A stretch of DNA of 39,479 bases from Bacteroidales bacterium (GTDB taxonomy: Bacteria; Bacteroidota; Bacteroidia; Bacteroidales; PWNQ01), in the NCBI GenBank assembly GCA_021738505.1, contig JAIPBW010000026.1:1-39479 (forward strand), given 5' to 3'. Under the pieces are notes generated by a model that had not been told where the DNA came from, ran no database searches, and saw only the letters and a list, made by a program, of their open reading frames with translations. A program made the position numbers and the translations under genes. Positions 19,229 to 28,050 of this stretch are shown here, piece by piece (within the stretch, counting starts at the first letter, position 1; each line of letters begins with the position of its first letter).

Positions 19229-19981
19229 CTATAAAAACAGATGCTCAGGATAGTTTATTTTGCATAGAAATAAGCCTTTGCCGGGAACAGATTTGCCCGC
19301 ATATTGACGATTTTTATAAGACATTATTTTCTCCACATCTTCTACTTCAATCTGTCCTCTGCCAACATCTATTAACGTACCAACAATAGCTCGTACCATA
19401 TTACGTAAAAAGCGGTCGGCAGATATATGAAAAACCAGTAATTTATTATCGGAAAACCACCTGGCTTTTCTTACATCGCAAATAAAATTATTAACATCAG
19501 TTCCGGAACGGGCGAAGCTACTAAAATCGTGTGTCCCGATTAAGTATTTTGCCGCTTCATTCATTTTAGTCAAGTCCAATGGTGCTAAAAAAATATGTGC
19601 ATAGTCATTCAAAAATGGATCCTTCACGGTTGTAATATAATATTTATAGGATCGCTCAATAGCATCAAAGCGCGCATGTGCATCTTTTTTAACAGGATGT
19701 AGGTTATGCAGAACAACAGACGAAGGTAAAAAACGATTCATTTTATAAACAAAGTCGTTTATATCTAGGTCTTTCATATCAATATCCGTATGAGCAAAGA
19801 AGTTTTTTGCATGCACACCTGCATCTGTTCTTCCCGCCCCCATAACGGCAACATTTTGTTTTAAGAAAACAGACATGTGATCTTCCAGACATTGTTGCAC
19901 TGTATAATGTGCTTTCTGGCGCTGCCAGCCATGAAAAGGTCCTCCATCAAAAGAAAGTTCTATAAAATAGCGGCTAACCAT
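19229..19981 (-). CDS. truA: tRNA pseudouridine synthase A (TruA)
   Basis: This protein of about 250 residues matches TruA throughout. It starts MVSRYFIELSFDGGPFHGWQ, has the catalytic aspartate motif GAGRTDAGVHA (about 47-57) and the later FLRNMVRAIVGTLIDVGRG (about 190-208). It converts uridine to pseudouridine at positions 38-40 of the tRNA anticodon stem. I prefer the ATG at 19981 because the family's conserved region begins there. The frame stays open for 13 more codons upstream (to 20020), but those residues do not look like TruA. It is a housekeeping gene, not linked to the hydrogenase operon transcribed in the other direction. Confidence 0.93.
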   Translation of the reverse strand: MVSRYFIELSFDGGPFHGWQRQKAHYTVQQCLEDHMSVFLKQNVAVMGAGRTDAGVHAKNFFAHTDIDMKDLDINDFVYKMNRFLPSSVVLHNLHPVKKDAHARFDAIERSYKYYITTVKDPFLNDYAHIFLAPLDLTKMNEAAKYLIGTHDFSSFARSGTDVNNFICDVRKARWFSDNKLLVFHISADRFLRNMVRAIVGTLIDVGRGQIEVEDVEKIMSYKNRQYAGKSVPGKGLFLCKINYPEHLFL

Positions 19982-20101
19982 AATTTTGATTTGCGGCAAA
20001 ATTACGAATAAATTAAACAATCAGGATCAGGCACGGTTGCAAAGCGAACAATTTAATTTAGACTACCTATAAATTAGCAAAAACAACGAAAAAAAGCACC
20101 A

Positions 20102-20119
20102 TTGTTATTCAGCTAACAA
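20102..20119 (+). promoter_or_regulatory. Rex-like operator 1 upstream of hydCBA
   Basis: The 18-bp dyad TTGTTATTCAGCTAACAA has perfect 6-bp arms TTGTTA/TAACAA around a 6-base spacer. This is the size and symmetry of the operator bound by Rex, the NADH/NAD+-responsive repressor (TTGT-N10-ACAA). It lies 10 bases upstream of the likely -7 box, so binding would cover the -33 region. Confidence 0.65.
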
Positions 20120-20145: not shown

Positions 20146-20163
20146 TTGTTATTCTAATAACAA
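20146..20163 (+). promoter_or_regulatory. Rex-like operator 2 upstream of hydCBA
   Basis: The 18-bp dyad TTGTTATTCTAATAACAA has perfect 8-bp arms (TTGTTATT/AATAACAA) around a 2-base centre. It shares nine leading bases with operator 1 and starts 44 bases downstream of it, just after the predicted transcription start. A bound repressor here would block initiation or early elongation. Confidence 0.68.
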
Positions 20164-20202: not shown

Positions 20203-20670
20203 ATGTCGAATACACAACAAATGGTCAAAGAGCTTGTAGAAAAACATGGCCGGGAAAGAACCAATCTGATGGCTATTCTACAAGGTGTTGTAGATCAACA
20301 GAATCATTTAGATGACCAGGCTATAATCGAAATTGCCAGAGAAATGGATTTATCTGCAGCTCAGGTTTATGGCACTGCATCTTTTTACACATTTTTGGAT
20401 ATTAAACCCAGAGGGGAATATGTAATCCGCCTATGCAGAACAATTACATGCGATATGAAAGGTAAACGGGAGATTCTACATACATTGGAAAATCTTCTCA
20501 AAGTTAATATCGGGGAAACCACACCTGATAATAAATTCACATTACTGGAAACCAACTGTTTGGGATGGTGCCATAAAGGGCCTGCAATGCTAATTAACAA
20601 CAAAGCATATACTGAACTTACACCGGAAAAAGTGAAAGAAATCATCACAGAAATCAAGCACAAAAGCTAA
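20203..20670 (+). CDS. hydC: NAD-linked [FeFe]-hydrogenase gamma subunit (NuoE-like, HydC)
   Basis: This 155-residue protein has the thioredoxin-like [2Fe-2S] fold of NuoE. After an N-terminal helical bundle (about 1-70), the four cluster cysteines appear as CRTITC (about 81-86) and CLGWC (about 121-125). In HydABC-type hydrogenases this subunit passes electrons to or from the FMN subunit. A strong AGGAGG Shine-Dalgarno (20192-20197) sits 5 bases before the ATG, unusual for this phylum. It is the first gene of hydC-hydB-hydA, with 13 bases to hydB and two Rex-like dyads in its promoter. The product is cytoplasmic. The only reasonable alternative, a complex I subunit, is excluded by the neighbouring [FeFe]-hydrogenase. 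Confidence 0.9.
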   Translation: MSNTQQMVKELVEKHGRERTNLMAILQGVVDQQNHLDDQAIIEIAREMDLSAAQVYGTASFYTFLDIKPRGEYVIRLCRTITCDMKGKREILHTLENLLKVNIGETTPDNKFTLLETNCLGWCHKGPAMLINNKAYTELTPEKVKEIITEIKHKS

Positions 20671-20683
20671 AACGGAGGTCATT

Positions 20684-21850
20684 ATGGCAGATACAAAACA
20701 ATTGAAAAGAGTTGATATAATTTTTACAGAAGATTGTAATTATAAAGACATATTATCTGAAGCGCTACAATCCAGCAATGAAGATATCGTCCAGTCCCTG
20801 CTTAATTCAGGACTGCGAGGGCGCGGTGGAGCTGGCTTTCCAACCGGGATGAAATGGAAATTCACAGCTCAGGAAGAATCCGATGAGAAATTTATCATTT
20901 GTAATGCAGATGAGGGCGAACCGGGTACCTTTAAAGACCGTGAAATTCTGTTTAAAGTTCCCTTCAAAGTTTTTGGCGGGATGGCTGTCGGAGCTAAAGT
21001 CATCGGCGCTAAAGAAGGGTATATTTATTTACGCGGAGAGTACAAATTCTTGCTCGATGATTTACAAAAACATCTGGACGAGTTTCATAATGTTTTAGAT
21101 GAATTAAATTTTGATTTCAGAATTAAAATTGTCACGGGCGCCGGTGCTTACATTTGTGGCGAAGAAAGCGCATTATTCGAATCCATGGAAGGTAAACGCG
21201 GAGAGCCCCGCAACAAGCCACCCTATCCTACCACTTATGGATACAAAGGAAAACCAACGGTTATCAATAATGTGGAAACATTGGTTTATGCATTAATGAT
21301 TTGCCGTTTAGGAGGAGAGAAGTTTAAAGAACTTGGTACTGATGATTCCAGAGGATCAAAAGTATTTTCTGTCTCCGGTGATACGCCTATACCTGGCATT
21401 TATGAACTTGAGTTGGGAATGACTCTTGAAAACTTTGTGGAAGAATTTGGCGATGGAGACACAAAATCAGTACAAGTAGGTGGTGCCGCAGGCTTTTGCG
21501 TTCCCCGTAAACATTTCAAGGATACCATTATTGGATTTGAAGGTGTTCCTACCGGGGGATCAATGATGATATTCAACAGTTCCCGTTCTATGTATAATGT
21601 CATACATAATTATCTGGAATTTTTTGAAGAAGAATCCTGTGGACAATGTACTCCTTGCCGCGTAGGTTGTCAGCAGCTACTACTCGGAGTTGAAGCAGTG
21701 AAACGTGGAGACAAACCCATTGAGTACCTTAATGAACTGCTTAAACTTACAGAAACGATGAAAATGACATCCAAATGTGGTTTGGGACAGTCTGTAGCAA
21801 ACTCATTTGCTTCTATCGTTGATAACTTCAAAGAAGAAATGATCTATTAA
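20684..21850 (+). CDS. hydB: NAD-linked [FeFe]-hydrogenase beta subunit (NuoF-like, HydB), short form
   Basis: This 388-residue protein contains the complete NuoF core. The FMN/NADH-binding motifs are LRGRGGAGFPTGMKW (about 45-59), CNADEGEPGTFKDRE (about 72-86) and GAGAYICGEESAL (about 149-161). Near the end it has the [4Fe-4S] ligands of cluster N3 (CGQCTPC, about 323-329, and a later Cys in SKCGLG). It oxidises NADH or reduces NAD+ for the hydrogenase. Classical bifurcating HydB subunits (about 600 residues) have an extra N-terminal [2Fe-2S] domain and a C-terminal 2x[4Fe-4S] domain. Both are absent here, and the protein ends shortly after the N3 helix. GGAGG (20674-20678) precedes the ATG by 5 bases. 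Confidence 0.92.
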   Translation: MADTKQLKRVDIIFTEDCNYKDILSEALQSSNEDIVQSLLNSGLRGRGGAGFPTGMKWKFTAQEESDEKFIICNADEGEPGTFKDREILFKVPFKVFGGMAVGAKVIGAKEGYIYLRGEYKFLLDDLQKHLDEFHNVLDELNFDFRIKIVTGAGAYICGEESALFESMEGKRGEPRNKPPYPTTYGYKGKPTVINNVETLVYALMICRLGGEKFKELGTDDSRGSKVFSVSGDTPIPGIYELELGMTLENFVEEFGDGDTKSVQVGGAAGFCVPRKHFKDTIIGFEGVPTGGSMMIFNSSRSMYNVIHNYLEFFEEESCGQCTPCRVGCQQLLLGVEAVKRGDKPIEYLNELLKLTETMKMTSKCGLGQSVANSFASIVDNFKEEMIY

Positions 21851-21884: not shown

Positions 21885-23672
21885 ATGTCTAAAATGATAA
21901 ACTTAAATATAGATGGAATTGATGTCAGCGTTGAAGAAGGGAAAACAGTACTCGATGCTGCCAAAAAAATAAAAGTTAAAGTCCCCACGCTGTGTTTCCA
22001 TGAAGACCTTTGCGTTGCCGGAAATTGTCGCGTTTGCGTTGTCGAACAAGAAGGAAAAGGATTAATTGCTTCCTGCGCGATGCCTGCGCAAGAAGGTATG
22101 AAAATCCATACCAACACACTGAAAGTACGACGCTCAAGAAAACACATTATCGAGTTATTGCTCTCAGAGCACAATGCCGATTGTACAAAGTGTTTCAAAA
22201 ACGGAAATTGCGAACTTCAGGAATTAGCCAATGAATATCGCACAGGTAATCAGGTTTTTCTGGATCTTGTTCCGGAAAAAAACTATACCGTCGATCAATC
22301 CTCTCCTTCCATTATGAAAGACGACAGCAAATGTATCCGCTGTCAACGTTGTGTAAGGACCTGTGAGCAATTGCAAGCTGTTAGTGCATTGGCTGTTGCT
22401 AACAAAGGAGGCAACATGAAAATATCCAGCTTTTTCGATCGCCCGATGCATGAAGTGGTTTGTACCAATTGCGGGCAATGTATCAATCGTTGTCCTACAG
22501 GTGCTCTCATTGAGGTTAATGACATCGAAAATGTATGGGATGCAATTTATGATGAAAGCAAACATGTTATTATCCAAACAGCCCCTGCAGTGCGCATCGG
22601 TTTAGGTGAAGAACTTGGCTTTGATCCCGGAAAACGTGTTACGGGAAAAATGGTTACCGCCCTTAAGCGTCTTGGTTTTGACTCTGTACTGGACACCCAG
22701 TTTACGGCTGACCTGACAATTATGGAAGAAGGTACCGAGTTGCTTACAAAGCTGAAAAAAGCACTTGTAGACGGTGATGAATCCGTACACCTGCCAATGA
22801 CGACCTCATGCTCACCAGGCTGGGTTAAATTTATAGAGCATACATTCCCTGAATTACTGGACAATGTATCCTCCTGTAAGTCACCACAACAAATGTTTGG
22901 TACGTTAGCCAAGACCTATTACGCTCAAAAACGTAATCTGGACCCGAAAGATATAATTTCTGTATCTGTCATGCCGTGTACGGCGAAAAAGTTTGAAGCC
23001 GATCGTCCGGAAATGACCGATAGTGGTTATAAAGATGTGGATTATGCAATTACCACACGGGAACTGGCCATTATGGTTAAGCAAGCCGGGCTTGAATTCC
23101 TTGAGCTTGAGGATCAAAAATTTGACAGCCTCATGGGCGATTCTTCCGGAGCAGCAACTATTTTCGGAGCCACAGGAGGTGTAATGGAAGCTGCCCTGAG
23201 AACAGCTTATGAAATTGTTACCGGCCGTGAAGTTCCGTTTAAAAACTTAAATATTGAACCGGTCCGTGGTTTTGGCGGAGTGCGCGAAGCTACCATTAAA
23301 ATAGAAGATCCGGTTGAAGACTGGAAGTTTCTTGATGGTGTAGAGTTACGATGCGCTGTTGCACATGGATTAGCGAATGCCAAAGAGCTGATGCAGGCTG
23401 TAAAAGATGGCAAGGCCAATTATCATTTCATCGAAATCATGGCTTGTCCGGGCGGTTGTCTTGGAGGCGGAGGTCAGCCTATACCAACCAATCAGGCTAT
23501 TCGGGATAAGCGTGCTAAAGCCATTTATGAAGAAGACATGGACCTTCCAGTTCGTAAATCACATGAAAATCCGGAAATCGTTAAGATATACGAAGATTTC
23601 TTAGGTGAGCCATTAGGCCATAAATCTCATGAACTCTTACACACGAAATATGTAGCTCGTGAACGTTATTAA
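21885..23672 (+). CDS. hydA: [FeFe]-hydrogenase catalytic subunit (HydA)
   Basis: This 595-residue protein has, in order: an N-terminal [2Fe-2S] domain (C at CFHEDLCVAGNCRVC, about 30-44, and ASC); a His-containing [4Fe-4S] motif (H-x3-C-x2-C-x5-C around DCTKCFKNGNC); two [4Fe-4S] motifs (CIRCQRCVRTC and CTNCGQCINRC); the H-cluster domain with L1 TSCSPGW, L2 MPCTAKKFE and L3 EIMACPGGCLGGGGQP; and a C-terminal small-subunit-like tail (HELLHTKY). It catalyses reversible proton reduction to H2. L1 has Ser where the textbook TSCCPxW has its second Cys. I start at the ATG at 21885 (MSKMINLN); an in-frame TTG at 21867 is less likely. Maturases HydE, HydF and HydG are not nearby. A terminator follows. 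Confidence 0.95.
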   Translation: MSKMINLNIDGIDVSVEEGKTVLDAAKKIKVKVPTLCFHEDLCVAGNCRVCVVEQEGKGLIASCAMPAQEGMKIHTNTLKVRRSRKHIIELLLSEHNADCTKCFKNGNCELQELANEYRTGNQVFLDLVPEKNYTVDQSSPSIMKDDSKCIRCQRCVRTCEQLQAVSALAVANKGGNMKISSFFDRPMHEVVCTNCGQCINRCPTGALIEVNDIENVWDAIYDESKHVIIQTAPAVRIGLGEELGFDPGKRVTGKMVTALKRLGFDSVLDTQFTADLTIMEEGTELLTKLKKALVDGDESVHLPMTTSCSPGWVKFIEHTFPELLDNVSSCKSPQQMFGTLAKTYYAQKRNLDPKDIISVSVMPCTAKKFEADRPEMTDSGYKDVDYAITTRELAIMVKQAGLEFLELEDQKFDSLMGDSSGAATIFGATGGVMEAALRTAYEIVTGREVPFKNLNIEPVRGFGGVREATIKIEDPVEDWKFLDGVELRCAVAHGLANAKELMQAVKDGKANYHFIEIMACPGGCLGGGGQPIPTNQAIRDKRAKAIYEEDMDLPVRKSHENPEIVKIYEDFLGEPLGHKSHELLHTKYVARERY

Positions 23673-23699: not shown

Positions 23700-23728
23700 A
23701 GAGCTGCCTTTTAGGGCAGCTCTTTTTT
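23700..23728 (+). terminator. Rho-independent terminator after hydA
   Basis: The 9-bp stem AGAGCTGCC/GGCAGCTCT (23700-23708 and 23715-23723) is followed by a T-tract. It separates the catalytic operon from the signalling genes, which then have their own promoter. Confidence 0.9.
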
Positions 23729-23736
23729 AGCCCTGC

Positions 23737-23754
23737 TTGTTATATTATTAACAC
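23737..23754 (+). promoter_or_regulatory. Rex-like operator 3, upstream of the DRTGG operon
   Basis: TTGTTATATTATTAACAC is an 18-bp dyad, TTGTTA-N6-TAACAc, differing from a perfect arm pair only in the last base. It has the same form as the two dyads in front of hydC, and lies between the hydA terminator and the -33 box of the next promoter. Confidence 0.58.
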
Positions 23755-23771
23755 TGTTATTTTTTTAACAT
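23754..23771 (+). promoter_or_regulatory. Rex-like operator 4, upstream of the DRTGG operon
   Basis: The core TGTTA-N6-TAACA (23755-23770) directly follows operator 3, with start points 17 bases apart. The outermost bases of an ideal TTGTTA/TAACAA pair are missing, so this is the weakest of the four dyads. It ends 4 bases before the TTG of the promoter. Confidence 0.48.
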
Positions 23772-23827: not shown

Positions 23828-24202
23828 ATGAGCCTGAAAACAAAAAACATAAACCACCTGACCGTGCATTCTATAGCCCAAGTTGTAAATGGTACGATTT
23901 CCGGTGCACCTGTTGATACAGAGCAAAAAATAGAATATGCATTTGCTTCCGATTTGATGAGCGATGTGCTTATGTTAGATACTAACGATATCACTCTTAT
24001 CACAGGTTTAGCCAACCCACAAGTTATCCGCACCGCTGAGATGTCGGATATTAACCTGGTTATCATTGCAAGAGACAAAAAATGCAGTAGTGAAATGATC
24101 AATCTGGCACGGGAAAATAACATAACCATTATTGAAACTCCCTACTCGGTTTTTAAAGTCAGTGGGTTATTGTACAATCAAGGAATCAAACCAATCTTTT
24201 AA
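23828..24202 (+). CDS. DRTGG-domain protein 1 of the hydrogenase locus
   Basis: This protein of about 124 residues consists almost entirely of one DRTGG-type alpha/beta domain. Recognisable segments are an N-terminal strand-helix (VHSIAQVVNGTI), then FASDLMSDVLML, a hydrophobic strand (LVIIARD) and a final TPYSVFKVSGLLY. DRTGG domains occur next to CBS domains or phosphotransacetylase and are thought to bind a small ligand, but their role is not established. In many fermentative bacteria such proteins are encoded with HydABC hydrogenases. I start at the ATG at 23828, 20 bases after the -7 box; a longer frame begins upstream of that promoter box. The next gene follows after 3 bases, so this is the first gene of an operon. 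A second DRTGG gene is at 25973. Confidence 0.8.
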   Translation: MSLKTKNINHLTVHSIAQVVNGTISGAPVDTEQKIEYAFASDLMSDVLMLDTNDITLITGLANPQVIRTAEMSDINLVIIARDKKCSSEMINLARENNITIIETPYSVFKVSGLLYNQGIKPIF

Positions 24203-24205
24203 ATT

Positions 24206-24622
24206 TTGAATATAAAATTTGACATAGAAGGGGGAAATTTTAGCTCAGCCGGATTAGCCTCCAGTGAGGTAAAAAGGCTATTAAAACAGCTCAATATAGA
24301 CATAAAAACTATAAAACGGTTAGTTGTAGCCATGTATGAAGCTGAAGTTAACATCGTGGCTCATGCTTATCAGGGAGAAGCTGATGTTGAGATCAACGAA
24401 GATCATATAAAGGTTGTGTTTACAGATCATGGCCCGGGAATAGACGACATTGATCTGGCTATGCAAAAAGGATATTCCACTGCCAGCGAACAAGTGCGCG
24501 AAATGGGATTTGGCGCAGGGATGGGATTACCAAACATAAAATCACACGCTGACAAACTCAATATAACAAGTGAAGTAGGAAAAGGAACACGAGTAGAAAT
24601 AATCTGTTATTTGAACGCTTAA
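24206..24622 (+). CDS. GHKL ATPase related to anti-sigma-factor kinases (RsbW/SpoIIAB-like)
   Basis: This 138-residue protein is a single HATPase_c domain. The N-box is YEAEVNIVAHAY (about 47-58), the G1 box DHGPGI (about 77-82) and the G2 region MGFGAGMGL (about 102-110), with KGTRVEIICYL at the end. Stand-alone domains of this size act as serine kinases of anti-sigma-antagonists in partner switching. No STAS-domain partner or SpoIIE-type phosphatase is seen nearby, so the target is unknown. The only plausible start is TTG at 24206, 3 bases after the previous stop; the next Met would delete the first quarter of the domain. The following gene starts after 5 bases. The pairing with DRTGG and Fe-S proteins suggests a redox-responsive switch around the hydrogenase (inference). 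Confidence 0.82.
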   Translation: MNIKFDIEGGNFSSAGLASSEVKRLLKQLNIDIKTIKRLVVAMYEAEVNIVAHAYQGEADVEINEDHIKVVFTDHGPGIDDIDLAMQKGYSTASEQVREMGFGAGMGLPNIKSHADKLNITSEVGKGTRVEIICYLNA

Positions 24623-24627
24623 AAACT

Positions 24628-25968
24628 ATGACAAAACAAGCTTTTCATCACGCCCTTAAAATAGATAAAGACCTTTGCATTGGATGTGCTAACTGCATGA
24701 GAGTTTGCCCGACAGAAGCAATACGGGTAAGAGAAGGCAAAGCTAATTTGGAAGCTAATCGCTGCATTGATTGTGGTGAATGTTACAGACATTGCCCGGT
24801 AAATGCCATCATTATCGAACAAGATGATTTTACGAATATTCACAATTTCCAATACAGAGTTGCCTTAGTCCCTTCGATTTTTTTCGGCCAGTTTCCTGAG
24901 GATGTACAAACAGAAGAGATCCACAGTAGTTTGAAACAACAAGGCTTTACTCATGTCTTTGAAGTTGAAAACTCTACAGAAATTGTATGGCGTAAACAGC
25001 AGGAAGAGCTGAAAAACCAGGAAAACACCAGACCGTTAATATCTGCTTTTTGCCCGGCTATTGTTCGGCTAATACAAGTGAAATTCCCTTCCTTAATCCC
25101 AAATCTGTTATCCATCAAACCTCCTTTAGATGTAAGTGCTTTATACTTCAAGAAAAAGTTAATCGACCAGGGTATAACGGAAGATAAAATTGGAATTTTT
25201 TATATAACGCAATGTGCAGCTAAGATCGCAGCAATAAAAAGTCCTGTAGGTGAAGACAAATCGGCTATTGACGGGGTTATAAACATGGATTACCTTTATA
25301 ACAAGGTATTTACTTTTATCAAACAACATAACAACGATCGTTGCGCCCTTCCCGACCGGCAGCACCTTAGCTCGCGAGATATACTGTGGAGCTTAACCAA
25401 CGGAGAAAAAGACCACAATGGGCAACGAAGCCTGGCCATAGATGGTATTAACAACGTAATGGCCATTCTTGAACGCGTCGAAAACGAAGAGATGAGTAAT
25501 ATCGATTTTCTGGAACTACGCGCTTGTGATGAAAGTTGCGCCGGAGGAGTGTTAACAAGCGGAAACCGTTTCTTAACAGTAGAAAGAATGAGAAACCGGG
25601 CCGAAAATGCGACTGAGCAAAAAAATGAAGAGTTTTTATCTTACAGAGACTATTTGCTTAACAATATTACTATAGGCCCCGTAGAGCCTCGTTCTATGAT
25701 GAAACTTGACAATGATCTCTCCATAGCTTTACGCAAAATGCGACAAGTCCAGATGACAATGGAACGACTCCCCAGGGTAGACTGTACAGTGTGTGGAGCG
25801 CCCAGTTGCAGAGCTCTTGCTGAAGATATTGTGCAAGGAAAAGCAAGCATAAACGATTGCATTTTTATTCAAAAACGGAAAGAACAAAAAGAATTAATGA
25901 GTAAAGAAGAATCCCTGGAAATTATGAAATCCATCTGGGGAAAACCCAAACTTGATAAAAACCGTTAG
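24628..25968 (+). CDS. Fe-S protein with a modified [FeFe]-hydrogenase-like domain
   Basis: This 446-residue protein starts with a 2x[4Fe-4S] ferredoxin domain (CIGCANCMRVCP about 17-28, CIDCGECYRHCP about 47-58). Then comes a region of about 270 residues homologous to the H-cluster domain of HydA, and finally a [4Fe-4S] motif C-x2-C-x4-C-x16-C (CTVCGAPSC about 389-397, ending at NDC). In the hydrogenase-like part, L1 reads FCPAIVRL, L2 TQCAAKIAA and L3 ACDESCAGG. The four cysteines that could hold the cubane are present, but the proton-relay Cys and the GGGQP end of L3 are gone. It is therefore unlikely to make H2 and more likely to be a redox sensor or electron-transfer scaffold. It sits between two DRTGG genes and is translationally coupled to the next one. 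Confidence 0.85.
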   Translation: MTKQAFHHALKIDKDLCIGCANCMRVCPTEAIRVREGKANLEANRCIDCGECYRHCPVNAIIIEQDDFTNIHNFQYRVALVPSIFFGQFPEDVQTEEIHSSLKQQGFTHVFEVENSTEIVWRKQQEELKNQENTRPLISAFCPAIVRLIQVKFPSLIPNLLSIKPPLDVSALYFKKKLIDQGITEDKIGIFYITQCAAKIAAIKSPVGEDKSAIDGVINMDYLYNKVFTFIKQHNNDRCALPDRQHLSSRDILWSLTNGEKDHNGQRSLAIDGINNVMAILERVENEEMSNIDFLELRACDESCAGGVLTSGNRFLTVERMRNRAENATEQKNEEFLSYRDYLLNNITIGPVEPRSMMKLDNDLSIALRKMRQVQMTMERLPRVDCTVCGAPSCRALAEDIVQGKASINDCIFIQKRKEQKELMSKEESLEIMKSIWGKPKLDKNR

Positions 25969-25972
25969 TGTT

Positions 25973-26332
25973 ATGACGATAGAAGAAATTAAAAATAAAT
26001 TGGATTTATCTGTTTTCTCAGGCCAGGACGGACTTAGCAAAACAGCAACAGGCGGCTACGTTTCCGACCTCCTCAGCGATGTTATGGGAAATGCCAAAGA
26101 GGGCCAGGTATGGATTACACTGCAAACCCATAAAAACATAATGGCTATTGCCTCTTTAAAAGATATCGCGGCTATTATTATTGTAAAAGACCTGCAACCG
26201 AGTGAAGAAACTATTGAGTTCAGCAACAAAGAAAACATTCCGTTGTTATCTACATCAAAATCTGCCTTTGAAATCACAGGCCAATTATATGAAACCTTCA
26301 TGTTTGCCAAAAGCACACAAGAGAATGATTAA
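25973..26332 (+). CDS. DRTGG-domain protein 2 of the hydrogenase locus
   Basis: This protein of about 119 residues is a second single-domain DRTGG protein. GGYVSDLLSDVMGNA (about 25-39) aligns with ASDLMSDVL of the first, followed by a strand-rich AAIIIVKDLQ and TSKSAFEITGQLYE. It is clearly a paralogue of the 23828-24202 product, but low identity suggests old divergence and separate roles. I chose the ATG at 25973, 4 bases after the stop of the Fe-S protein gene; the frame also reaches back to a TTG inside that gene. The function of these single-domain proteins in hydrogenase loci has not been established as far as I know. A 300-base gap with a periodic repeat follows. Confidence 0.78.
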   Translation: MTIEEIKNKLDLSVFSGQDGLSKTATGGYVSDLLSDVMGNAKEGQVWITLQTHKNIMAIASLKDIAAIIIVKDLQPSEETIEFSNKENIPLLSTSKSAFEITGQLYETFMFAKSTQEND

Positions 26333-26363
26333 ATATGCTGGGCGGGTTGGATAATGCAAAGAA

Positions 26364-26449
26364 ACCAATGACATTTATTGTTATTAGTAGTCATTGGTTG
26401 TCATTTGTTGTCATTGATGGTCATTGGTAGTCATTAATGGTCATTTTCT
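26364..26449 (+). repeat. Six 10-bp tandem units of GTCATTNNTN with an inverted lead copy
   Basis: Starting at 26390, 26400, 26410, 26420, 26430 and 26440, each 10-base unit begins GTCATT, followed by four variable bases. An inverted copy, ACCAATGAC at 26364-26372, can pair with GTCATTGGT at 26390-26398. The rest of the 302-base gap between DRTGG protein 2 and the PHP gene (26333-26634) holds nothing else I recognise. Confidence 0.85.
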
Positions 26450-26634
26450 ATACTTGTGTGTCCGGCTGCTGTCAAATATAACCGTCTCAGAAAGCTCTGA
26501 AGTAAATGACTTAGAATATAGTAAAGCAAAATGACGCGCGAAGCAAATGACAGTAAGAGATAAAAGAAAGAAAACATAATAATGGCATTACCAGTATTTT
26601 GAATAATTCAATTATATAAAATTCTAAAATAATT

Positions 26635-27369
26635 ATGAACCGGTATCGCGCTGACCTCCATATACACACAGTTCTATCCCCTTGCGGCGATCTAAGCATG
26701 AGTCCGCATAATATACTGGAGCATGCAGCACGAAAAAGTATTGATATTATTGGCATTGCCGATCACAACAGTACTTTACAAGGTCAAATTATTGCCGATC
26801 TGGCCGGAAGGTACGGGATCACGGTGCTTTGCGGTGCCGAAGTTACTTCAATGGAAGAAGCCCACTGCTTATGTTTTTTTCCGGAAAATAAACTTACTGA
26901 ATTCCAAAGCTATCTTGATAAGCATCTGATAAAATATCCCAACGACCCGGACAAACTCGGCTATCAGGTTGTGGTGGATGCAGAAGAACAAATATTACAG
27001 CAACTTGACTATTCGCTGTTTACATCTCTCGACCAAAGCATTGATCAGATTAGCCAGAAAGTTCATGAATTAGGCGGCATATTCATCCCGGCACATATTA
27101 ATAAATCCAGATTTAGTTTACTTAGTCAGCTTGGTTTTATACCGGAGGATCTAAATGAAGATGCTCTGGAAATTTCTTTCCACACTACGAAAGAAAAATT
27201 TACAAATGAATATCCTATACTTCATGACAAGACATTTATTCAGTCATCTGACGCCCACTATCCGGAAGACATCGGTAAGATCCATACACTTTTTAAAATG
27301 AACAACAGAAGTTTTGATGAAATAAAGCAAGCCCTCCATAATAAAAATGGACGAAACATATACATTTAA
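26635..27369 (+). CDS. PHP-domain metal-dependent phosphoesterase of the hydrogenase locus
   Basis: This 244-residue protein carries PHP-domain metal-binding motifs: DLHIHT at residues 7-12 (H-x-H), IADHNS (about 41-46), CGAEVTS (about 66-72), PAHINKS (about 157-163) and SSDAHYPED near the end (about 204-212). Members hydrolyse phosphate esters or phosphodiesters using two or three metal ions. The substrate here is unknown. PHP proteins of this size recur next to HydABC genes in anaerobes and may remove a phosphoryl or nucleotide signal. It follows DRTGG protein 2 after a 300-base gap, so it may have its own promoter, and precedes the second ATPase gene by 88 bases. The start is the ATG directly before NRYRADLHIHT. 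Confidence 0.85.
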   Translation: MNRYRADLHIHTVLSPCGDLSMSPHNILEHAARKSIDIIGIADHNSTLQGQIIADLAGRYGITVLCGAEVTSMEEAHCLCFFPENKLTEFQSYLDKHLIKYPNDPDKLGYQVVVDAEEQILQQLDYSLFTSLDQSIDQISQKVHELGGIFIPAHINKSRFSLLSQLGFIPEDLNEDALEISFHTTKEKFTNEYPILHDKTFIQSSDAHYPEDIGKIHTLFKMNNRSFDEIKQALHNKNGRNIYI

Positions 27370-27457
27370 CATATCTAAATTTTTCGATATCTACTGCTTA
27401 AGCGCATAGTCAGCATAAAGTCACATCTGACAATAAAAGCATAAAATATTTCCACCG

Positions 27458-28012
27458 ATGAAAACTTTATCATACCATATTCTTGACATAACCGAAAATT
27501 GTTCCCGCGCGAATGCAACGGTCATAAAGCTGGATATCACAGAAAACCAATCCTCTGACACCTATTGCATACAGATAGAAGATAACGGAGACGGCATGTC
27601 AGAGGAAATGTTAAAAAAAGTACATGATCCATTTTTCACTTCCCGAACGACCAGAAAAGTAGGGCTTGGCATCCCGCTTTTTAGGCAAAATGCGCTTCAA
27701 GCCGGTGGTGATTTTTCTATAGATTCCAAACTTAACAAAGGGACAGTTGTTAAGGCTATTTTTGGATTATCAAATATTGATCGGCCGCCTGTAGGAGATC
27801 TGCCCGATACAATTGTTTGGTTAATTGCTTCATTTGACAAAGATATCCGGTTTGTTTATACCCATCGAACAGATTCCGGAGAATATATTTTTGACACAGA
27901 CCAAATTAGAGAAGCTTTGGATAATATCTCTTTTTCTCATCCGGAAATAAAATCCATGCTAAAGGAAATGATAAAGGAAAATCTTGAAGAGATTAAAGCT
28001 ACAAAAAATTAG
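27458..28012 (+). CDS. GHKL ATPase, histidine-kinase-like catalytic domain only
   Basis: This 184-residue protein begins at the N-box of a histidine-kinase ATPase domain (HILDITENCSRANAT, about 7-21). It has G1 EDNGDGM (about 43-49), the F-box-like DPFFTSRTTRKVGLGIPLF (about 57-75) and KGTVVKAIF (about 101-109). There is no dimerisation helix with a phospho-accepting His and no sensor domain, so it cannot be a normal sensor kinase by itself. The C-terminal 70 residues (about 115-184) have no match I recognise. It is the last gene of the hydrogenase signalling cluster and is followed by a strong terminator. In related loci of anaerobes such genes lie next to the NuoE-type subunit, suggesting a link to HydC (inference). 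Confidence 0.8.
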   Translation: MKTLSYHILDITENCSRANATVIKLDITENQSSDTYCIQIEDNGDGMSEEMLKKVHDPFFTSRTTRKVGLGIPLFRQNALQAGGDFSIDSKLNKGTVVKAIFGLSNIDRPPVGDLPDTIVWLIASFDKDIRFVYTHRTDSGEYIFDTDQIREALDNISFSHPEIKSMLKEMIKENLEEIKATKN

Positions 28013-28025
28013 CAAGAAAAAAAAA

Positions 28026-28050
28026 GCCCTCATCTGAGGGCCTTTTTTTT
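28026..28050. terminator. Bidirectional terminator closing the hydrogenase region
   Basis: The stem GCCCTCA/TGAGGGC (28026-28032 and 28035-28041) has a run of A before it and eight T after it. It can end both the ATPase transcript and the converging T9SS propeller gene, whose stop lies 20 bases further on. Confidence 0.9.

Follow-up and report, generated by a model that had tools for sequence, protein, structure and literature searches.

A conserved six-gene set around a putative sensory [FeFe]-hydrogenase, a candidate signalling module for NADH-linked hydrogenases in Bacteroidota

We analyzed a stretch of 39,479 nucleotides of a Bacteroidota assembly (contig G000:C51, hereafter the window; labels beginning with L, G and C denote loci, genomes and contigs of this analysis), in which the hydrogenase genes hydC-hydB-hydA on the plus strand are followed by six intact plus-strand open reading frames (ORFs) at 23828-28012. 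An earlier reading made from the sequence only had described these six genes as a conserved, hydrogenase-linked signalling set for which no role of the whole had been established. Our data agree with this description; Pfam and NCBIfam searches support the name given to each gene, and the order DRTGG1-RsbW-HydS-DRTGG2-PHP-GHKL recurs widely. The set has two halves, DRTGG1-RsbW-HydS and DRTGG2-PHP-GHKL. We propose that together they act as a single, conserved signalling unit that serves NADH-linked hydrogenases as well as NuoEF-type complexes related to them, a proposal to which we assign an even chance of being correct.

Conservation of the set was analyzed in 99 HydS loci, 98 from Bacteroidota and one from Clostridia (Subdoligranulum, L042). 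Search centres were limited to Bacteroidota, and coverage beyond this phylum consisted of L042 and published locus tags; a first scan of genome contigs with a single query sequence had yielded four loci only. The six genes were found in exactly this order, consecutively, in 77 of the 99 loci, and the association is therefore far beyond chance. Median gaps along the order were 12, 9, 4, 3 and -1 bp, and mean identities of the module proteins ranged from 43 to 59% (45% for HydS).

The division into two halves follows from fusions, splits and losses. DRTGG1 is fused with RsbW in L218 (272 amino acids), and PHP with GHKL in L171 (427 amino acids). In L194, L197 and L198 the set is rearranged such that DRTGG2-PHP-GHKL precedes DRTGG1-RsbW-HydS, and only the first half occurs within the stretch read in L186, L193, L199 and L209-L211. 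GHKL is located together with hydrogenase genes on the opposite strand in L042 and L196. In addition, homologs of RsbW and PHP could not be detected anywhere in the genomes G245 and G250, in which HydS and GHKL are still found beside HydC/HydB; DRTGG1 was counted as lost jointly with them. Such a co-loss with retention of HydS and GHKL would be expected if RsbW, DRTGG1 and PHP were a kinase-substrate-phosphatase set and HydS and GHKL were positioned nearer to the hydrogenase.

HydS (24628..25968, 446 amino acids) had been noted as an Fe-S protein with a hydrogenase-like domain. The domain was confirmed, but the class of the protein is already known: all sequence features that were tested place it among the group D (M2e) putative sensory [FeFe]-hydrogenases, the class of TamHydS. 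It contains a Fer4 region with two N-terminal [4Fe-4S] motifs, Fe_hyd_lg_C (PF02906, 91.3 bits) and a C-terminal FeS domain (PF04060), whereas a Pfam profile search yielded no PAS domain. The H-cluster cysteines C142, C196, C300 and C304, as well as E296, which is equivalent to E289 of TamHydS, are invariant in all 99 loci. The relay cysteine C299 of CpI is replaced by F, Y or A across the loci (F141 in the window), and the position of CpI M353 is mostly occupied by Thr or Ser (T194 in the window). Counterparts of TamHydS R30, E392 and D393 are R33, E399 and D400, with R32 and R42 also matched. The structural model, despite a low confidence (predicted local distance difference test, pLDDT, 60), matches [FeFe]-hydrogenases in the PDB. 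Both HydG and HydF are encoded in the genome of the window. HydS proteins of groups C and D have been proposed as H2 sensors (PMC10055695, PMC8163306). Group D HydS genes were reported near bifurcating hydrogenases and next to a histidine-kinase-like ATPase (PMC8163306), and in Caldicellulosiruptor and Thermoanaerobacter M2e genes are five loci from bifurcating hydrogenases (PMC3561251, Table 6).

The gene preceding hydS (24206..24622, 138 amino acids) codes for an RsbW/SpoIIAB-like GHKL ATPase of the Ser/Thr-kinase type with an HATPase_c domain and matches to SpoIIAB and RsbW in the PDB. Its nearest family is SpoIIAB (TIGR01925, 72.7 bits), with a score under the equivalog cut-off of 135. Residues for ATP binding and catalysis are intact and invariant (E44/N48 of the E/N box, D73-x-G75 and the G2 loop). 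The two small proteins DRTGG1 (23828..24202, 124 amino acids) and DRTGG2 (25973..26332, 119 amino acids) scored 26.8 and 28.7 bits, respectively, against PF07085, both above the cut-off of 25.2, and DRTGG2 also matched PF02603 (31.2 bits). DRTGG1 contains the motif SDLMSDVL, which is invariant over 94 sequences, and the two proteins share D, S, T and A residues around SDLxSDV that do not vary; the S and T among these are candidate phosphorylation sites. A structure search with DRTGG gave weak matches only; the top PDB rows were designed repeat proteins and were discarded as spurious.

The PHP-family phosphoesterase (26635..27369, 244 amino acids; PF02811 and PF13263, i.e., PHP and PHP_C) has its metal-ligand motifs (HxH, DH, E, H and DxH) invariant in 87 sequences (H9, H11, D43, H44, E69, H154, D206 and H208 in the window). 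The last protein, GHKL (27458..28012, 184 amino acids; PF02518, 54.2 bits), had been described as a kinase-like ATPase without a phospho-acceptor domain, and this holds: only the HATPase part matched, the ORF starts at the N box, and no DHp domain with a phospho-acceptor His was found in it. Its catalytic motifs are invariant or nearly so across loci. In the structural model of the protein (pLDDT 80), the C-terminal part is alpha-beta-beta-alpha-alpha, and a fold search revealed no clear fold for this part.

The co-occurrence with hydrogenase genes that the sequence-only reading had expected was also observed. HydS was flanked by 7 kb or more on either side in 70 loci, and a HydB/NuoF gene was located within 12 kb in 55 of these. 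In a sample of 294 genomes of the order of G201, the module was present in 84 (about 29%), HydG in 177 (60%) and both in 73; HydG occurred in 73/84 genomes with the module versus 104/210 others (odds ratio 6.8, Fisher p 7e-10, uncorrected for relatedness). HydB proteins near the module fell into two types. At the positions of T. maritima HydB 232/234, short HydB (<430 amino acids) had T/K in 25 of 28 cases and long HydB had A/M in 69 of 70; these residues separate non-bifurcating from bifurcating enzymes (PMC7311640). Both types were present in 21 loci, with the module between them.

In the window, the hydrogenase is composed of hydC (20203..20670), coding for a NuoE-like [2Fe-2S] subunit of 155 amino acids (PF01257, 156 bits), hydB (20684..21850), coding for a short NuoF-like subunit, and hydA (21885..23672, start codon uncertain), coding for an [FeFe]-hydrogenase catalytic subunit of NCBIfam group A6 (NF040763, 873 bits, cut-off 765). 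HydB aligns to positions 169-553 of the 626 residues of T. maritima HydB and lacks the N-terminal and C-terminal Fe-S domains of the latter. Because this protein is only 388 amino acids long, has the motif EPGTFKDR and the T/K residues, and is without the C-terminal 2x[4Fe-4S] part, the enzyme is predicted to be non-bifurcating and NADH-linked. HydA of the window has TSCSPGW in place of TSCCPGW of the prototypical enzymes, with Ser at a usual cluster-ligand position. Elsewhere in the same genome, contig C49 carries a standalone bifurcating-type set, ferredoxin-HydB-HydA-HydC (L219, 1906-6425). Since a bifurcating-type set directly follows the module in relatives, that of C49 probably became separated from the module in this lineage. 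A third, divergently arranged HydABC-like set is located on contig C66 (15000-34000, L039), with two group C-like HydS (631 and 673 amino acids) and a SpoIIE-like phosphatase (393 amino acids).

The link of the module to hydABC, as it had been put, stood as an association but not as one with [FeFe]-hydrogenase as such; the module occurs at several loci without hydrogenase subunit genes nearby and in an order without [FeFe] maturation. In this order, that of G172, the module was present in 14 of 98 genomes, whereas HydG was found in none of the 98 (search at 1e-90), and no HydF was found in two genomes of the HydG-less type that were tested. HydS was the sole [FeFe]-domain protein in all 14 genomes. 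G180, which is outside this order, was also HydG-negative but had one HydA near a contig end. Neighbors of the HydG-less modules included NuoE, NuoF, a NuoG-like Fe-S protein without the H domain, HdrA/B/C-like proteins, MvhD and subunits of [NiFe]-hydrogenase. In all 13 HydS sequences read from this order and G180, the first cluster motif had R, H, D or Q in place of its second Cys, which was kept in 85/86 others; the four H-cluster cysteines and E296 were retained in the 13 proteins. As the order keeps the module in the absence of HydG and of any other [FeFe]-domain protein, the lasting partner of the module is thus the NADH/Fe-S core and not the H-cluster. NuoEF-type, HdrABC-like, MvhD and [NiFe] genes are clustered in L128, L130, L133, L137 and L138 of the HydG-less order, and this cluster is a candidate NAD-linked bifurcating [NiFe] complex.

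The six genes had been read as simply following hydA. Position and direction are correct, but an intrinsic terminator (23700..23730, plus strand; hairpin 23700-23723, -17.7 kcal/mol) and two adjoining palindromes resembling Rex sites by motif match (23737..23771, the presumed module promoter) lie between hydA and DRTGG1. For this reason, the module is probably transcribed as a unit of its own, apart from hydCBA. A strong hairpin with a T-run occurs at this junction in most relatives that have it, with the sequence itself differing, and a predicted hairpin terminator (28026..28049, plus strand) ends the module. Two further Rex-like palindromes are located 5' of hydC, at 20102-20119 (TTGTTATTCAGCTAACAA) and 20146-20163 (TTGTTATTCTAATAACAA), each with 2 mismatches to TTGTTAANNNNTTAACAA. 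It should be noted that the number of such sites over the entire window is at the chance level, and that their position and their recurrence in relatives are the sole support. Among 82 non-[NiFe] loci, 39 had the Rex operator-like sequence TTGTKA-N6-TMACAA, with at most one mismatch, 5' of DRTGG1; shuffles gave a mean of 1.1 and a maximum of 4. Such sites were almost absent 5' of RsbW, HydS or PHP. Transcription of both the module and the hydrogenase is probably controlled by a Rex-like NADH-responsive repressor; however, CRP/FNR-type proteins bind similar palindromes and may be the cognate regulators instead. In C. bescii, Rex regulates the hyd operon and binds upstream of its start at Athe_1295, two genes before hydABC (PMC8579813).

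Two local features of the window may be added. The DRTGG2-PHP junction is 302 bp long (26333-26634) and includes an imperfect array of 5-6 GTCATT copies (26372..26445); because the median at this junction elsewhere is 3 bp, the gap looks like a local insertion. On the other side, hydC is adjoined by truA (19229-20020, minus strand). TruA keeps this side in 12 relatives, and the locus is thus syntenic.

With regard to mechanism, HydS might read H2 or electron pressure, as its family, ligands and conservation would suggest, and pass the signal to the SpoIIAB/RsbW-type kinase. The direct partner of the kinase may be DRTGG1, given their adjacency, natural fusion and co-loss, and the kinase would phosphorylate the invariant Ser or Thr of the DRTGG proteins. 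PHP, which has an intact metal site and is co-lost with RsbW and DRTGG1, would be the opposing phosphoesterase, with the DRTGG proteins as its presumed substrate; co-loss and fusions fit both phosphorylation and its reversal. DRTGG2-PHP-GHKL would then be the output half, in which GHKL could bind the NADH core and tune its activity. GHKL is suggested as the output because it is found beside HydC/HydB, stays with HydS after loss of RsbW and PHP, and in one genome forms a fusion protein with PHP. A likely use would be balancing NADH against ferredoxin as electron sources for H2, since in many relatives the module is flanked by two enzymes, of which one is non-bifurcating and the other, on the opposite side, bifurcating. 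The steps observed are at the level of genes and comprise the composition and order of the set, its motifs, its fusions, splits and losses, and its neighbors and operators; sensing, phosphorylation, dephosphorylation and the effect on hydrogenase are what we infer from them. A more specific version, which we regard as possible though rather doubtful, is that the switch acts directly on the NADH core of the hydrogenase and that what it reads is not H2 but the redox state of Fe-S clusters. In that case, HydS of HydG-less organisms, devoid of the diiron site and of one N-terminal ligand, would still run the switch beside NuoEF-Hdr-[NiFe], and elsewhere the switch would select between the non-bifurcating and bifurcating enzymes.

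Several observations weigh against the proposal. Assays among the module proteins are limited to the HydS class, and it is by inference that we assign the phospho-acceptor, the complex and the effect on hydrogenase. The C-terminal cluster of TamHydS was not reduced by H2 (PMC13104023), which obscures how HydS would hand on its signal. The co-loss of RsbW and PHP concerns two genomes of one genus and perhaps a single event, and the loci, nearly all from Bacteroidota, are not independent. Finally, genes for hydrogenase subunits are missing within reach of the module at several loci, for example that of Parabacteroides distasonis (L041), and the same holds for five HydG-negative genomes of the 294-genome sample; therefore, a target other than HydABC is possible.

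Other explanations of the set were considered. The relationship of the RsbW-like protein to SpoIIAB/RsbW, its nearest known family, raises the possibility of partner switching, with this protein as an anti-sigma factor and HydS, DRTGG and PHP controlling release of a sigma factor for hydrogenase genes. Group C HydS is indeed accompanied by SpoIIE-type phosphatases in relatives (L140) and, judging from sequence similarity, also in the genome of the window (L039). However, the SpoIIAB score is far under the equivalog cut-off, and within 11 kb of the module the sampled loci had no recurring gene for a sigma factor, a STAS antagonist or a DNA-binding protein; because sigma and STAS neighbors are missing, we consider this explanation very unlikely. 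The DRTGG domain could instead point to a nucleotide signal, as it is present in the regulatory part of CBS-DRTGG pyrophosphatases, which bind nucleotides. DRTGG would then bind a nucleotide, and the GHKL proteins would be ATP-dependent conformational switches. PHP, which has a weak relationship to the nucleoside bisphosphatase and RNase families, would hydrolyse a signal in the form of a small phosphorylated molecule, and no protein phosphorylation would be involved. Yet no signal-nucleotide synthetase recurs beside the module, and the joint loss of RsbW, DRTGG1 and PHP suits a kinase-substrate-phosphatase set equally well or better, so that this scheme appears unlikely.

A role in assembly would account for the finding that the module is constantly linked to NuoEF-type subunits, whether the setting is [FeFe] or [NiFe]: GHKL, whose model also matches the ATPases of MutL/PMS2 and topoisomerase VI, would assemble NuoEF-type Fe-S complexes with its partners, and HydS would be an Fe-S scaffold. 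An RsbW-type kinase and a phosphoesterase would be odd in a chaperone set, though, and the frequencies of module and HydG in the order of G201 (about 29% versus 60%) indicate that active hydrogenases do without the module. We regard assembly as quite unlikely. Each of these three explanations has less support than the reading of the set as sensor, kinase and phosphatase. That HydS is alone an H2 sensor feeding transcription, with the other five genes as operon passengers, would agree with the proposed sensory role of groups C and D (PMC10055695, PMC8163306), but the set keeps its order and composition even among widely diverged loci (mean HydS identity 45%), the catalytic motifs of all module enzymes are intact, and HydS persists without HydG; this explanation is highly improbable.

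The set had been presented as the best candidate for an undescribed system. This applies to the full six genes and their layout, as full-text searches found no description of the module as a unit, but not to HydS, whose class and hydrogenase neighborhood are already known. How group D sensory hydrogenases transmit their signal has been stated to be an open question (PMC8163306); with six defined proteins, a two-part layout and a likely kinase/phosphatase pair, such signalling becomes testable. If the target is the NADH core, the module would provide post-translational control of electron sharing among NADH, ferredoxin and H2 in fermenting anaerobes, which would be relevant to H2 and methane formation. 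The retention of HydS without HydG also cautions against taking every HydS as an H2 sensor.

In comparison with known systems, the module shares with SpoIIAB/SpoIIAA and RsbW/RsbV a SpoIIAB-type kinase beside a small partner, together with a phosphatase. Unlike these systems, it has no sigma factor or STAS protein, its partner is DRTGG, and its candidate phosphatase is PHP rather than PP2C. With group C (M2f) HydS (T. maritima HydS, the hfs operon and R. albus HydS), it has in common the H domain and an Fe-S sensor by hydrogenase genes, with a phosphatase present; however, it has neither PAS nor the SpoIIE phosphatase and contains instead the RsbW-like kinase, two DRTGG proteins, PHP and a second GHKL protein. 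The hydrogenase of the window resembles the non-bifurcating Hyd1ABC of S. wolfei (PMC5626996, PMC7311640) in that HydB is likewise without extra Fe-S domains and has T/K, a likeness known here from sequence. With TamHydS (PMC8163306, PMC13104023, PMC3561251), HydS shares the domain order, the H-cluster cysteines, the lost C299 proton relay, Thr/Ser at M353, the equivalents of E289, R30, E392 and D393, and a location near an NADH-linked hydrogenase and a histidine-kinase-like ATPase. What differs is that HydS here occurs in Bacteroidota with the full six-gene set, and that one clade of relatives is without HydG and has an altered N-terminal cluster ligand.

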